Origin: an uncultured Lachnospiraceae bacterium
GTDB taxonomy: Bacteria > Bacillota > Clostridia > Lachnospirales > Lachnospiraceae
NCBI GenBank assembly: GCA_948473115.1
Contig: CAOKWI010000015.1
Location: 1 to 64,000, forward strand
Reading direction: 5' to 3'
Length of the DNA stretch: 64,000 bases
Positions 4,036 through 36,234 of the stretch are shown here, piece by piece; the stretch's first letter is position 1, and each line of letters starts with the position of its first letter. A model generated the notes under the pieces. It saw nothing but the letters and a program-made list of their open reading frames with translations, was not told the DNA's origin and searched no databases. The position numbers and the translations under genes were made by a program.

Positions 4036-6549
4036 TCAGCAGGGGCTTGTTTCCCCCTTCAGCCGCATGACCGTCACTGACCTTCCGGGGAATGACCTTC
4101 TAAACTCCTTTCTTTCCCCCACAAGCCCCGCAACATCATTGGACTGTTTTATCTCTGCCGTCTCCACCCCTGGAAACTCTGCACTTTCCACACAGTCCTC
4201 TTCCAACAGCACATAGGTATCACAGGCCAGTTTCTGCGTTTCTATACCAGGAAGCGAAACCAGCGTCTCAAAAGCCTCTCCCCGCAGGTTGACAGCTTTC
4301 AGAATAATCTCCCCTGTACCCTTGTCCCTGCTGGCCGTCAGATACAAGGGTTCAATCTCCAAAGGTTTCAACTCCGTCCACTGATACAGTTCACCGTCTA
4401 TCCATCCCTCTACCCGGTTTCCCTGCACACGCAGTTCCAATTCATAACCATGTCCAGAAACCACCGAAAACTGGCTCTGGGTAAGAAAACTGCTCTTTCC
4501 GTCCACTTCCTCCATCAGGGCCGCATCCTGGTTCTCCCATCCGCCCAGGATCCAGCCCATCCGGTTCCGCTCATCCTTCCATGCAAAATACACCCGGAAT
4601 CCCTTGAATCCCTCCAGTTCTTTCGCATGAAATTTCAAGGTGAAATTCCGTGGGGCAGATTCCGTGAGAAGCACAGGCAGCTTATCCGCTTTTACCTCCC
4701 GGTCTGCATACCGGATCTCTTCCCCCGTATCCCCATCCATCAGAACAATCTCCGAGAAAGCTACCCTTGCCTCATTTCCCCAGAAATAAACAGCACCTTC
4801 CTTCCGGGCATCCAGGTTCGCCAATACCTTTTTCTCCAAGCCGGTCTCTATCTCACATCTCAGCAGTTCGTCTCCCTGATGGTTCATAAACAGCTTCTGT
4901 ACCTGGTAGTTCACCGACCTGCAGACCTGCCCGTTATCAAACCAGATCATATCGGGCCGCCAGTTCACATAGTCCCTGTTGCACAAAAGCGGCGCATAAC
5001 ATGCCATCTTCACTGCATGACAGGCATTCTGCAGCCCAGTCATGAATGCAGCCTCTGCCAGTGCGCTTTTTCCTGTATTCGAGCAGCTGGCATATTCCCC
5101 TAAGAACACATGGGGCGTCGTCTCCCCAAAGGAATCATACCGGTGAATATTGGCAAGGAACCACTCCGGCGCCATATAGTAATGCTCATCCACAATGTCC
5201 GCACCGTTCTCCCTGGCGCATTTCCATCCCAGATCATACTCACTGCCAGCACAAAAAGGCCCGCTGCTGCCGATAATCTTGATATCAGGGTACTTTTCCC
5301 GTACTGCTTTTACAAAACATGGGAAACGCTCCCGGAATCCCTCTCCTACTTCCTCGTTGCCAATCCCCAGATACTCCAGTCCAAAAGGCTCCCTATGCCC
5401 CAGAGCTGCCCGGACCGCTCCCCACTGTGTGGTCTCATCTCCGTTCGCAAACTCAATCAGGTCCAGGGTTTCCTGAATCCACGGCCCCAGTTCCTCCAGG
5501 GGAGCCATTCTCTTATGATGGGGATCATAGGCGGCCGGCAGAATCGGCACCGGCTTAGTGCCAATATCCTCGCAAAACAGGAAATATTCATAATATCCCA
5601 GCCCCAACGTCTGGTTATACCTCCAGTTGCTCCTTCGGGCAGGCCTGTCCTCCAAAGCCCCCAGTGTATTTTTCCAACGGTACAGCGAATCCCTGGCATT
5701 CTCATCCAGACTGCCGTCATGGACCAGACAGCCGCCCGGAAAGCGCATGAACTTCGGCTTCAGTTCCGCCAGAGCCTCCGCCAGGTCAGGACGGAGACCA
5801 TTTCTCCTGCCCCGGTAGGTTTCTTCCGGAAAAAGGGACACAAAATCAAGCTCAACGCCGCTCCCCTCCAGAACGGTAACGGCAAGGCTTCCTCTTTCCG
5901 TAACCAGTTTTTCCGTTTCCACTGCCTGCCCTGTTTCCCCTGATCCTCCTGTTCCTTCCGGTATGCCCGATCCTCCTGTTCCCTCTGATCCCCCTGTTCC
6001 TTCCGGTATCCCTGATCCTCCTGCCCTGGAAGTTCCGCCCCTGTCTGCAATCTCCATAACAGCCGTATGTTTCCCCCACTGCCCTTTCACAGCCCATTTC
6101 CCCTCCGCAAGACAGACATCTTTCCCATCCCGCAGGGTGACCCGGATTGTACACTCCTCACTTCCCACACTTCTGGCATAACAGGAAAACAGGTACTTTT
6201 TCCCCTGCCGAAAACACATCCCCTTTCCAAAACCAAGGTTCCGGACGCCCACATCGGCTCCCGGTTTTTGAATATCCATATGGAGATAATGAGGATTCCT
6301 GGCGCTTACCGCATCCCCTTCCAAAACGGTAATCTCTGCCCTGCCGTCCCTCTCCACCTTCTCCCATGCAGTCAGCGGATGATAAGATGGATTATCTATC
6401 TCCCCAAACTCAAAGGAACGGTTCTGGATCATCTCCGCATACAGTCCACCGTCCGCAGCGTGGTTCAAATCCTCAAAAAAGATGCCAAACAGGTCTCCTA
6501 TGGGCCTGTCCTCTGTTTTCGTCTCAATTGTAATACGATTCTGTTCCAT
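4036..6549 (-). CDS. GH51 alpha-L-arabinofuranosidase
   Basis: An 837-residue cytoplasmic enzyme (no signal peptide) that releases terminal arabinofuranose from arabinan or arabinoxylan oligosaccharides. The catalytic barrel shows the GH51 acid/base motif LGIGNEE (Glu near 399) and the nucleophile motif FLGEYAS (Glu near 485), with FMRFPGGC upstream and a beta-rich C-terminal domain. ATG 6549 is preferred because AAGGAAAGGAA precedes it. Unusually, residues about 171-207 are a Gly/Pro/Glu/Thr tandem repeat (GGSGIPEGT units) between the N-terminal beta domain and the barrel. It lies 157 bp after gtrA; whether it belongs to that operon is unclear. Confidence 0.9.
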   Translation of the reverse strand: MEQNRITIETKTEDRPIGDLFGIFFEDLNHAADGGLYAEMIQNRSFEFGEIDNPSYHPLTAWEKVERDGRAEITVLEGDAVSARNPHYLHMDIQKPGADVGVRNLGFGKGMCFRQGKKYLFSCYARSVGSEECTIRVTLRDGKDVCLAEGKWAVKGQWGKHTAVMEIADRGGTSRAGGSGIPEGTGGSEGTGGSGIPEGTGGSGETGQAVETEKLVTERGSLAVTVLEGSGVELDFVSLFPEETYRGRRNGLRPDLAEALAELKPKFMRFPGGCLVHDGSLDENARDSLYRWKNTLGALEDRPARRSNWRYNQTLGLGYYEYFLFCEDIGTKPVPILPAAYDPHHKRMAPLEELGPWIQETLDLIEFANGDETTQWGAVRAALGHREPFGLEYLGIGNEEVGEGFRERFPCFVKAVREKYPDIKIIGSSGPFCAGSEYDLGWKCARENGADIVDEHYYMAPEWFLANIHRYDSFGETTPHVFLGEYASCSNTGKSALAEAAFMTGLQNACHAVKMACYAPLLCNRDYVNWRPDMIWFDNGQVCRSVNYQVQKLFMNHQGDELLRCEIETGLEKKVLANLDARKEGAVYFWGNEARVAFSEIVLMDGDTGEEIRYADREVKADKLPVLLTESAPRNFTLKFHAKELEGFKGFRVYFAWKDERNRMGWILGGWENQDAALMEEVDGKSSFLTQSQFSVVSGHGYELELRVQGNRVEGWIDGELYQWTELKPLEIEPLYLTASRDKGTGEIILKAVNLRGEAFETLVSLPGIETQKLACDTYVLLEEDCVESAEFPGVETAEIKQSNDVAGLVGERKEFRRSFPGRSVTVMRLKGETSPC

Positions 6550-29967: not shown

Positions 29968-30720
29968 CTAAATCGAATAATCGTAATCGCGGTTAACCCG
30001 GTGCAGGAATTGGGAAGTCCTCTCCTCCCTGGGAGACTGGAATATCTGCCTGGGAGTGCCTTCCTCCACCACAACGCCGCCTTCCATAAACACTACCCTG
30101 TTTGCCACGTCATGAGCAAAGCTCATCTCATGGGTCACCACCACCATAGTGACGCCTTCCCTTGCCAACTCCTTCATGACGCACAATACCTCGCCTATCA
30201 ATTCGGGATCCAGGGCGGAAGTGGGCTCGTCAAACAGGATCACCTCCGGTCTGACCGCCACGGCCCTGGCAATTCCCACCCGTTGCTGCTGGCCGCCGGA
30301 AAGCTGTGAGGGATAGTAACCATATCGGTCAGCAAGCCCCACCTTGTCGAGCGCCTCCTTCGCGATCACCTCCGCCTCTTCCCGGGGAACCTTCCTGGCC
30401 ACAGTCAATCCCTCCATAACATTTTGGAGCGCCGTCTTGTTCTGGAACAGATTATAATTCTGAAACACAAAGGCCGTCTTCTTCCTGATCTTATTGACAG
30501 TCCTCCGTGACGCATTCTTTAACTCCGTATGAATCTCATCAAAGTCGAGACTGCCCTCGTCGGCCCTCTCCAGGAAATTAATGCACCTGAGCAGCGTCGT
30601 CTTACCGGAGCCGCTGGGACCCAGGATCACCACCACATCACCCTTTTCCACCTTGATATTTACTCCCTTTAATACCTGATTGCCGCCAAATGTCTTATGT
30701 ATGTTCCTGATCTCCAACAT
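29968..30720 (-). CDS. Polar amino acid ABC transporter ATPase
   Basis: A 250-residue GlnQ/HisP-type ATPase: Walker [14 protein letters not shown]-loop FQNYNLF, signature LSGGQQQR, Walker [14 protein letters not shown] and His switch VVTHEM. ATG 30720 has AGGGAGG upstream. Last gene of the operon that also encodes two permeases and a binding lipoprotein. The enzymes in the operon point to a sulfur-containing amino acid as cargo, by inference only. Confidence 0.9.
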
Positions 30721-30764
30721 TTCGTTTTCCTCCCTGATCCTGCATAACACTGTTTCGAAACACC

Positions 30765-31478
30765 CTATCCGGCCAGTCTCTGCTTGTACACGGATATCCT
30801 CTTTTCAATTCCCTTGAAAATGAGCTGCACCACTGTGCACAACACCAGATACACAAAGAAGACATCCAGGTATGCTTCAATATAATCATAGCCATAAGCC
30901 GCCGCCGTCCTGGCAATGGATGTAATCTCTTTCACGCCCATCATATATGCCAGCGAAGTGCTCTTGAGCAGACCGATGGTACTGTTGCAGAGATTGGGCA
31001 TCGCCGCCACCATGGCCTGGGGAATAATGATACGAAGATAAGTCTGTCTCTTTGTCATACCCACCGCCAGCCCTGCTTCCAGCTGTCCCTGGTTCACCGT
31101 TTGCAGCGCAGACCGGAACACCTCCGTCAATACGGCCAGGTTATTGATAATGAACACAACATAGGCGTAAATGACAGGATTCCAGTTAAAAATGTTGTAA
31201 TCCAGCTGAAGCACATTCCTGATCAGGTGGTTCAGCAGGCTGGGAAGCAGGCTGTATAAAAACAGAATCTGTAGGATCACCGGCGTTCCTCTGATGAAGG
31301 ACACGTATCCGGCGATCAGCCTGCCCGCCACCTTTCTGTTCTCCGCTCTGGCCACAGCAAACAGAAATGCCAGCGGCCCGGCTGTCAGCAGGGTAAAAAA
31401 CGTGATTTCCAGTGTGGTGGGAATGCCGGTCAGAATTTTGACAAGCGTTTCCCCCATGAATTTGATATTGAGCTCCAT
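30765..31478 (-). CDS. Amino acid ABC transporter permease 1
   Basis: A 237-residue HisM/GlnP-type permease with about five membrane helices, and the EAA-like loop [22 protein letters not shown] that contacts the ATPase (given as [19 protein letters not shown]). ATG 31478 is preferred over an upstream TTG at 31508. It is separated from the second permease by a 90-bp inverted-repeat element. Confidence 0.9.
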
Positions 31479-31511
31479 ATGGACACCATGCCTTTCCGTG
31501 GTCTGCAATTA

Positions 31512-31607: not shown

Positions 31608-32315
31608 TTATGCCGCCGTTGTCAGTTTTTTCTTTCCTCTTGACAGCTTCTTCTCGACCGCTCCAAAAAACTTCTGGATCATAATGGTCATGATCCAGTA
31701 AAGGGCAGCGAGTGCCAGATAGACCTCCAGCGTGTAGGAGCCCTGGTATCTGCCTATGATCCTGTTGCCCTGTCCCACAATGTCTATCAACCCGATGGTA
31801 TACGCCAAGGCGCCTTCCTTCATCAGGTTGATCAGGGAATTGGTAAAATTGGGGATCGCCACCACTATGCTCTGGGGCAGGACGATCCTGAGGAACGCCT
31901 GCGCCTCTGTGAGGCCAACGCTTACCGCTGCCTCCCTCTGTCCCTTGTCTATGGCCAGGTATGCCGATCTGAAGACCTCTGATATGTTGGCCGCATATAA
32001 TATGGAAAAGGTCACGATCACAAAGAATCCGTTGTCAACCCCATTCATATTGATGCCCACGGAAAGGAGCAGTTCCGGCAATCCGTAAAACACCACAAAC
32101 AGCATTACCACAGAGGGGACGCAGCGCGTCACATAGGTATAAATCTCTGCCAGTGCCTTCGTGACAGGGCGCCTCCGCACCTTTGCAAGGGCCAGGAAGA
32201 ATCCCCACATCCCGCCAAACAGAACGGTTCCCAGGACCATTCCCAGGGTAACCGGCAGGTAAGTGACCAGTTCCGGTATAATTTCTAATATAAATAACGG
32301 GTGAAAGGGACGCAT
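31608..32315 (-). CDS. Amino acid ABC transporter permease 2
   Basis: A 235-residue HisQ-type permease with about five membrane helices and the loop AAVSVGLTEAQAFLRIVLPQ. ATG 32315 follows AGGAGG by 8 bases; the frame also opens at GTG 32324. Basic C-terminus (KKLSRGKKKL). It would form the heterodimeric channel with permease 1. Confidence 0.9.
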   Translation of the reverse strand: MRPFHPLFILEIIPELVTYLPVTLGMVLGTVLFGGMWGFFLALAKVRRRPVTKALAEIYTYVTRCVPSVVMLFVVFYGLPELLLSVGINMNGVDNGFFVIVTFSILYAANISEVFRSAYLAIDKGQREAAVSVGLTEAQAFLRIVLPQSIVVAIPNFTNSLINLMKEGALAYTIGLIDIVGQGNRIIGRYQGSYTLEVYLALAALYWIMTIMIQKFFGAVEKKLSRGKKKLTTAA

Positions 32316-32405
32316 GTCTGCCACCTCCTGTACATTTTATCTTCAAATTTCTGAGAGAATCATCGCTTACCCAGCGGCGCAGGGAACCATTTCATCAGCG
32401 TTTCC

Positions 32406-35775: not shown

Positions 35776-35795
35776 AAAAAAAGGGGATCTCCCCT
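35776..35795 (-). terminator. Second leader terminator of the sulfur operon
   Basis: On the minus strand AGGGG-AGAT-CCCCT followed by eight T residues, 110 bp before the lipoprotein start. Because it lies between promoter and first gene, read-through must be regulated or partial. Confidence 0.7.
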
Positions 35796-35817
35796 CACCA
35801 GACAACCTGACTGTCCA

Positions 35818-35843
35818 TAAAAAAGCGTCCCTTCGTGACGCTT
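35818..35843 (-). terminator. First leader terminator of the sulfur operon
   Basis: On the minus strand AAGCGTC-acgaagg-GACGCTT then TTTTAT. Its 5' arm (35837-35843) could instead pair with GACGC at 35875-35879, which in turn could pair with GCGTC at 35884-35888; a strong hairpin (35845-35865) sits between. This is the geometry of an attenuator. Confidence 0.7.
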
Positions 35844-35928
35844 GCAAGTTCGCACAGCGAACTTGTGAACGCATGCGTCTGACGACGCAGTTTCCTATAA
35901 GGTGAAGAAAGTTTCTGACAAGACATAT

Positions 35929-36030
35929 TTATCTACAACAACAGTGTGTGCTGCAACACATTTCCTGACAGCACATTGCCTTCACACACATTTCCCGGAT
36001 TTCTACAATCATGACATTCCTCTTTTCCAT
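35929..36030 (-). CDS. Cysteine-rich 33-residue leader peptide (candidate)
   Basis: A short ORF with 8 cysteines in 33 residues, all in the last 19, ending MCCQEMCCSTHCCCR. AGGAGGGAG lies 9 bases before the ATG and a consensus promoter 54 bp further up, so it should be translated. It is followed by stacked hairpins, two terminators and then an operon for sulfur amino acid transport and metabolism. By analogy with cysteine-responsive leader peptides known in mycobacteria, ribosome pausing at the Cys codons may sense cysteine supply. A metal- or redox-binding microprotein is the alternative. Confidence 0.6.
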   Translation of the reverse strand: MEKRNVMIVEIREMCVKAMCCQEMCCSTHCCCR

Positions 36031-36090
36031 AAGTTGCTCCCTCCTAATTCATATATTTCCTATCAATTTAATATGAATTATTATACGAGT

Positions 36091-36119
36091 ATGATACTCC
36101 AGCTAATTTCTTTTGTCAA
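36091..36119 (-). promoter_or_regulatory. Sigma-A promoter of the leader peptide and sulfur operon
   Basis: On the minus strand TTGACA (36114-36119), 17 bp, TATCAT (36091-36096). A TATAAT at 36080-36085 is too far from this -35 and may be a second start. Confidence 0.7.
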
Positions 36120-36174
36120 TACCTTATTTCAAAAAATTTCCAAAACTGAACTGTTACCAGATTTCTCCAAAAAA

Positions 36175-36196
36175 AACAGTGTGAACCCACACTGTT
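36175..36196. terminator. Bidirectional terminator after the DUF6033-like gene
   Basis: AACAGTGTG-aacc-CACACTGTT with A- and T-tracts. Its stem matches the terminator at 29885-29928. Confidence 0.8.
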
Positions 36197-36234
36197 TTTT
36201 GTAATGCTTTGGTATGCTGCATTCTGTCGCTTGC

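Follow-up and report, generated by a model that had tools for sequence, protein, structure and literature searches.

A cysteine-rich leader ORF as a candidate ribosome-mediated attenuator of sulfur amino acid operons in Firmicutes

Introduction

CymR-type repressors and Cys T-boxes are the devices credited with sensing cysteine in Firmicutes, and a T-box binds tRNA directly, with no need for leader translation. From mycobacteria, polycysteine leaderless short ORFs have reportedly been described by Canestrari et al. 2020; unlike these leaderless ORFs, the Firmicute ORFs considered here are Shine–Dalgarno (SD)-led and have intrinsic terminators behind them.

Cysteine attenuation of the ribosome-mediated kind has precedents in Actinobacteria and Rhodobacterales. 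Cys leader peptides have been predicted in Mycobacterium, Propionibacterium acnes and Bifidobacterium longum (PMC1262725), where, like the Firmicute leaders, they place runs of Cys codons ahead of operons, in their case cys and cbs operons. No conserved terminator hairpins were found there and the Cys run lies near the stop codon, whereas the Firmicute leaders have a terminator behind them and their ORF often extends beyond the Cys cluster. The uORFC-8-2 motif, which precedes cysS in Rhodobacterales, combines a uORF carrying tandem Cys codons with an intrinsic terminator (PMC8632094), and shares both elements with the Firmicute leaders. It belongs to Alphaproteobacteria, has two conserved Cys codons and is tied to cysS, in contrast to the 3–9 Cys, accompanied by Met, and the transporter and sulfur enzyme operons of the Firmicute leaders. 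Within Firmicutes, a parallel is offered by Bacillus, where His leader peptides precede hisS/hisZ (PMC2965389): these are ribosome-type leader peptides that replace a T-box, but they differ in reading histidine and in preceding synthetase genes. A literature search of incomplete coverage returned no report of a Firmicute Cys leader, which is not proof of novelty.

Here, we describe a tiny Cys-rich ORF followed by a terminator which, most likely, switches sulfur amino acid genes on at cysteine shortage. If true, a translated Cys-codon sensor would act at sulfur amino acid operons besides CymR/T-box control, and overlooked short ORFs that precede operons for amino acid uptake in bacteria of the gut would gain a likely role.

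Results

Leader ORF and operon in the window

The window, the 64,000-nucleotide stretch of DNA from an uncultured Lachnospiraceae bacterium analysed here, carries a six-gene operon on the minus strand. Its first gene encodes an amino acid ABC transporter substrate-binding protein (SBP_bac_3, PF00497; 34685..35701), followed by a URO-D/MtaA-like methyltransferase (PF01208; 33608..34660) and a Cys_Met_Meta_PP PLP enzyme of the cystathionine lyase/synthase type (PF01053; 32406..33638), both with an uncertain start codon. Two ABC permeases (31608..32324, best family cystine-type, and 30765..31508) and an ABC ATPase whose best family is L-cystine TcyN (29968..30750) complete the operon. These family matches bear out the first-pass annotation of the sequence, which had read the operon as a transporter, a transsulfuration enzyme and a methyltransferase.

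Upstream of the operon, and likewise on the minus strand, lies a sigma-70-type promoter (TTGACA-17-TATCAT, 36091..36119) that matches 11 of 12 consensus positions, in line with the consensus promoter claimed at first pass. An inverted-repeat scan located a perfect 10-bp inverted repeat surrounding the presumed start site (36045..36080, no strand assigned). This repeat is a candidate operator, presumably for an Rrf2/CymR-like repressor, and palindromes resembling it by eye occur in promoters of relatives. The sequence AGGAGG (36040..36045, minus strand), which follows the −10 element of the predicted promoter at a distance of ~45 nt, provides the ribosome binding site of a 33-codon leader ORF rich in Cys and Met (35929..36030 with its stop codon, minus strand). 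The coding span runs from 36030 to 35932 and the stop codon occupies 35931–35929; the encoded peptide, MEKRNVMIVEIREMCVKAMCCQEMCCSTHCCCR, contains 8 Cys, the last of them at codon 35937–35935. The ORF, its Cys count and its strong ribosome site had all been proposed at first pass, and each stands. With its own ribosome site, the window ORF falls outside the mycobacterial class of polycysteine ORFs, which are leaderless and have none. An Rfam scan of the whole window at gathering score, T-box model included, gave no match. On sequence grounds, we regard the leader ORF as real and conserved.

Farther upstream, a perfect 13-bp inverted repeat at 36171–36200 lies between poly-A and poly-T and is likely the terminator of the upstream DUF6033 gene.

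Terminators and a dispersed repeat

The annotation had placed two terminators between the leader ORF and the first gene, and both positions hold a terminator-like stem followed by a U tract: stem 1 at 35843–35823, identified by terminator scan and repeat alignment, and terminator 2 (T2) at 35796–35781, identified by terminator scan, with its U tract from 35780 (both on the minus strand). Scanning 701 bases on both strands gave four terminator-like rows, among them two variants of stem 2 and one on the opposite strand, against 0.3 in shuffles.

Stem 1 and the surrounding stem array belong to an inserted dispersed repeat of ~85 bp with an ACC start (35820..35903, minus strand). A sequence search with its 81-bp form recovered 32 copies across the genome, of which 20 were aligned to define the boundaries; some copies are arranged in tandem at ~85-bp spacing and several lie immediately 3′ of a T run. 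In the alignment of the window with L003 and L015, the repeat is missing from L015, whose binding protein is 80% identical and whose leader has one terminator. The two-terminator layout thus arises because the repeat was inserted in the leader, and the design of a double terminator plus stem array put forward at first pass falls away. The stems of that array (GCGTC/GACGC/AAGCGTC/GACGCTT) do exist; as part of the dispersed repeat, they are ruled out as the switch. The same annotation reported the repeat module at two other sites as well; this is not confirmed for the window, which holds one central-hairpin copy, with one repeat copy on the contig. It had also cautioned that the Cys codons end about 40 bases before the first stem; the distance measures ~47 nt, and the worry is resolved because the repeat stems are not the antiterminator partner. 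We consider T2 the counterpart of the single terminator in L015 and L019, and take it to be the putative ancestral attenuator, conserved among these leaders.

Antiterminator pairing and the proposed switch

As in trp/his-type attenuators, an ORF rich in codons for one amino acid precedes uptake and synthesis genes, with an intrinsic terminator in between. We consider it probable, with good confidence, that the locus works as a cysteine-responsive, ribosome-mediated transcription attenuator, and the window leader is very likely a member of a group of cysteine-codon attenuators in Firmicutes. The steps from translation of the leader through stalling and antitermination to a response to cysteine are inferred, and would run as follows. 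The leader ORF would be translated during its transcription. With ample Cys-tRNA, the ribosome would pass the Cys codons to the stop codon and block pairing of the antiterminator strand, so that T2 would form as an intrinsic terminator and the operon would be off. With scarce Cys-tRNA, the ribosome would stall on the clustered Cys codons, the strand immediately in front of the ribosome would pair with the terminator 5′ arm, and RNA polymerase would continue into the genes for the transporter and the sulfur enzymes.

A duplex search proposed both antiterminator strands in the window (minus strand), the 5′ strand CUUUCUUCACC at 35901..35911 and the 3′ strand GGUGAGGGGAG at 35789..35799, the latter overlapping the T2 5′ arm. 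Their pairing (35911–35901 with 35799–35789) has an energy of −16.3 kcal/mol (p 0.007 against shuffles), among the best found. The 5′ strand starts 23 nt past the last Cys codon. Counted from the first stop-codon base, it starts 20 nt downstream, outside the footprint assumed for a ribosome at the stop, which speaks against the switch in the window. The search covered 20 leaders, 13 of them treated as non-redundant, and compared the stretch after the Cys cluster with the terminator 5′ arm, both as defined by us. Across the 13 leaders, duplexes with the own arm averaged −11.9 kcal/mol against −9.2 kcal/mol for swapped arms; the combined p for complementarity was 8e-5, or 7e-4 without the window, and single values fell below 0.05 in three (the window, L031 and L046).

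A natural sequence difference points to the same pairing. The leaders of L043 and L046 are 80% identical over their alignment. At one position they differ in three elements at once: the antiterminator strand (GGTTCCCA or GGTTCTCA, respectively; C to T), the terminator 5′ arm (TGGGAAC or TGAGAAC; G to A) and the terminator 3′ arm (GGTTCCT or GGTTCTT; C to T). This constitutes a three-way compensatory change, in which the base of the shared arm varies together with both of its alternative partners.

Folding in the presence of a ribosome was modelled for 24 leaders, near-copies included, pairing being allowed for RNA at least 14 nt beyond the first A-site base. A ribosome stalled in the main cluster lowered the modelled terminator probability from 1.00 to 0.01–0.17 in L026, from 0.96 to 0.07–0.65 in L048 and from 0.99 to 0.00 in L221. 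These three were the clear switches among the 24; three others (L008, L020 and L049) were mixed, the trend was reversed in L022 and partly in L031, and the remaining leaders, the window included, changed slightly or not at all. For the window, modelled T2 stood at 0.13 with the ribosome at the stop codon and at 0.16–0.35 when stalled. Equilibrium folding disregards co-transcriptional order, so these values neither prove nor refute a switch.

The repeat sits between the two proposed antiterminator strands of the window, and may have disturbed the modelled switch of that leader. On these grounds one could argue that the attenuator has decayed in this species, with the repeat uncoupling leader translation from T2 and the promoter operator, of Rrf2/CymR-like type, governing alone. 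The window copy shows no modelled switch, its terminator 1 stands at 0.38–0.99 in all states, and leaderless relatives with an operator-like palindrome exist. Such decay is nonetheless unlikely: the sister genome (L003/L018) retains the leader, the ribosome site, the antiterminator strand and T2, and the strand complementarity of the window itself ranks among the best.

Distribution of the leader

Searching 138 genomes of the genus with the binding protein (E ≤ 1e-50) yielded 11 loci in 10 genomes. Six of them have a Cys-rich leader ORF: L002 (the window), L003, L015 (peptide MKRSIDFEEKKMCMDRMCCKNMCCRSMYCCYK), L004, L016 and L008. The binding protein is kept without a leader in the other five (L005, L006, L007, L009 and L017), four of which have a promoter and a palindromic operator-like sequence directly before the gene. 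The L005 binding protein gene is located behind cysK, at the same locus as L027 (TIGR01139), and in L017 the binding protein gene is immediately preceded by a gene for an Rrf2 regulator (PF02082). Retention of the operon with loss of the ORF had been named at first pass as grounds for rejecting the idea of a Cys-sensing leader; the outcome is mixed, the leader being present in six of the 11 genus loci and absent from five.

A broader scan of named genomes, which overlaps the genus loci, used the binding protein alignment and considered the best 80 of 222 relatives. Twenty-two of these 80 carry a Cys-rich leader ORF and a terminator before the first gene, a count in which the terminator is part of the criterion and which includes near-copies of each other or of genus loci (L018, L019, L020, L021, L022, L025, L026, L031, L039, L041, L043, L045, L046, L048, L049, L068, L069, L071, L076, L077, L085 and L090). 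At least five of the 58 operons not counted as leader-bearing are short of upstream sequence. The leaders occur in Lachnospiraceae, Clostridiaceae (Youngiibacter), Acidaminococcaceae (Succiniclasticum, Phascolarctobacterium) and Enterococcus, and precede the binding protein gene, or the URO-D methyltransferase gene where the latter is first. The two Enterococcus leaders have just 3 Cys each, and L081 has an Enterococcus-type leader in a 2-Cys version. In a phylogeny built from 75 binding proteins, the leader label needs 10 changes, at least eight of them forced by well-supported branches; the leader has therefore often been gained, lost or moved.

To relate such ORFs to their context, the 80 loci (920 kb, both strands) were scanned for SD-led ORFs with at least 5 Cys and at least 12% Cys. 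Among the 25 Cys-rich ORFs found, 16 are followed by a terminator at most 260 nt away, and every one of these stands at the head of an operon; the other nine comprise the operon leader of L039, whose stem is weak (−5.9 kcal/mol), and eight scattered ORFs. As a rival to the intrinsic terminator, cysteine might be sensed by way of Rho-dependent termination, of RNA decay or of an effect of the nascent chain. A Rho route has been proposed for the terminator-less Actinobacterial Cys leaders (PMC1262725), and Cys-bearing short ORFs with no detected terminator, uncounted above, occupy the same place in L029, L050, L051, L054 and L094. We nevertheless find this route quite unlikely. A terminator lies behind every operon-head leader with at least 5 Cys (weak in L039), an argument tempered by the 22 leaders having been counted on possessing one, and the L043/L046 change links the leader tail to the terminator.

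The Treponema ORF in L094, MVSYFEKLVRENFRNGVMCRCCC, is found 267 nt before the start of the scanned ORF and has a strong ribosome site; no terminator was found behind it, and the gene that follows presumably encodes a short-chain dehydrogenase. L051, L050 and L054 are Clostridiaceae/Paenibacillus loci whose mini-ORFs carry their Cys codons in last place or close to it (MKKTNPNYCC, then stop, is one), with no terminator detected upstream of the first gene. The record of L041, titled Myxococcales bacterium UBA1238, is almost identical at this locus to the Lachnospiraceae locus L045 and is probably mislabelled or contaminated.

Leaders at other genes

Cys-rich leaders also precede other cysteine genes. 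Genome G389, a family-mate, has two (L148 and L149). One, MFNIATKTIECCMCCRMFNSRAAIRLGRCHADNHAS, is followed by cysK (TIGR01139) and the gene of a family-3 binding protein; the other, MFNLRNNKFNMCMCCCMLNSRASGMAGVCSCQHMHI, is followed by a Cys_Met_Meta_PP gene, downstream of which lies a permease-like gene. In its congener G842 (L221), a leader stands before an OAH/OAS sulfhydrylase gene (TIGR01326), itself upstream of cysK. All three leaders have CTCCCGGGC directly after the Cys cluster, and all three terminators have a 5′ arm with GCCCGG, its complement.

A cysK match was present in 188 of 200 family genomes. Scanning 30 upstream regions gave two matches, both rejected on reading, and with 0 of 30 regions bearing a leader, cysK was rejected as a general leader target. 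The N-terminal motif MKxQRM, common to two leaders, was likewise discarded as a family marker after giving five matches in 397 family genomes, none of them a Cys leader.

The pattern CMCC matched 48 of 392 genomes of the order, and 30 loci plus four further stretches were scanned, 18 loci having the motif in frame. Two convincing leaders emerged from the scanned loci, both from G389. Two further short Cys-rich ORFs lacked a terminator (L119 and L132), and the one in L119 was rejected as an alternative frame of a longer ORF. In 12 of the 18, the motif lies at the N-terminus of a long protein. These 12, among loci L118–L134, start with MGEALTGLKRSCMCC or similar, and we take them to be aspartyl-tRNA synthetases, in which an N-terminal CMCC is to our knowledge unfamiliar.

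In 11 leader-bearing genomes, the pattern ATGTGYTGY was in frame at 10 of the 30 loci examined, four of them known leaders and the other six without a convincing one; this pattern is insensitive, missing seven of the 11 known leaders. The genus of L046 has the binding protein (E ≤ 1e-80) in six of 17 genomes. The two already known have a leader; L217–L220 have none directly before the gene, and L222, the sole one of these cases followed further upstream, has none there either.

T-box replacement

The Succiniclasticum locus L063 carries a T-box before the same binding protein gene (RF00230, 95.8 bits, L063:5229-5512). The bases aligned to its specifier position, which we place by T-box anatomy, are UGC, presumably read as the Cys codon. 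In the binding-protein tree, the sisters of L063 are L068, L069 and L071, all leader-bearing, and the path between them measures ~0.10 changes per column. L068 has no T-box at gathering score, and Rfam searches of 14 further leader loci returned tRNA genes only, with no T-box or other leader family. T-box and leader would be alike as sensors of tRNA charging that control termination, the T-box of L063 holding the place of the leader, and they differ in RNA structure. The T-box supports cysteine as the signal because both elements would read the charging of tRNA-Cys, and their alternation in close relatives provides a natural experiment on the choice between tRNA-charging sensors. Taken with leaders in 22 of 80 operons and at other cysteine genes, the UGC T-box strongly supports the idea of a Firmicute Cys-codon leader advanced at first pass, shorn of its double terminator and stem array.

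Composition of the leader peptides

In 17 non-redundant leaders, Cys accounts for 106 of the 614 residues after the start (17.3%, against a background of 1.0% in ORFs of at least 230 residues on both strands of 11 loci; 16.9-fold). Met was unexpectedly enriched as well (12.9% against 1.9%, 6.7-fold), and no other residue exceeded 1.6-fold. Cys and Met codons are interleaved in patterns such as MCxxMCC and CMCCC, and there are 31 MC pairs where composition alone predicts 13.6. Across seven related leader pairs, Cys columns were conserved in 35 of 41 cells, five with a synonymous codon change, and Met columns, counting the start codons, in 35 of 44, compared with 99 of 177 for the remaining residues.

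Cys/Met-rich composition resembles that of soft-metal-binding peptides, and the Met enrichment and the excess of MC pairs would suit a peptide that is itself the product, a small metal- or thiol-binding protein. We judge this very unlikely, given that an alignment of 15 leaders left only M1, C25 and C26 invariant, with wide divergence outside the Cys cluster, that seven leaders found no match in Pfam/NCBIfam, and that terminators lie behind the leaders and a UGC T-box substitutes for one in L063. When a leader of 47 residues was searched against a protein database, the matches were that leader and one shorter relative.

Short ORFs are common, and eight scattered Cys-rich ones turned up in the 80-locus scan, yet a chance reading frame can be dismissed as exceedingly improbable, given the context control, the presence of leaders in several families and the shuffle control on intergenic regions of at least 150 nt, where SD-led ORFs with at least 4 Cys occurred in 11 of 26 homologous regions (some of them near-copies) against 8 of 520 shuffles, and those with at least 5 Cys in 9 of 26 against 2 of 520.

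The Met enrichment raises the testable question of whether one leader senses two sulfur amino acids. We tentatively suggest, as a possibility we would not yet favor, that these are Firmicutes-wide attenuators reading both Cys-tRNA and Met-tRNA and repeatedly exchanged for Cys T-boxes or repressor-only control at the same operon.

In three Lachnospiraceae loci (L033:409-453, L036 ~2050-2091 and L037 ~5975-5998), a mini-ORF ending in GGLIRC replaces the Cys leader and adjoins the binding protein gene. The peptides are MRITFISAGGLIRC, MKISFISAGGLIRC and MGGLIRCS, each followed by a stop codon; the motif occurs in three of 181 loci, and the mini-ORF may be a second, single-Cys sensing peptide.
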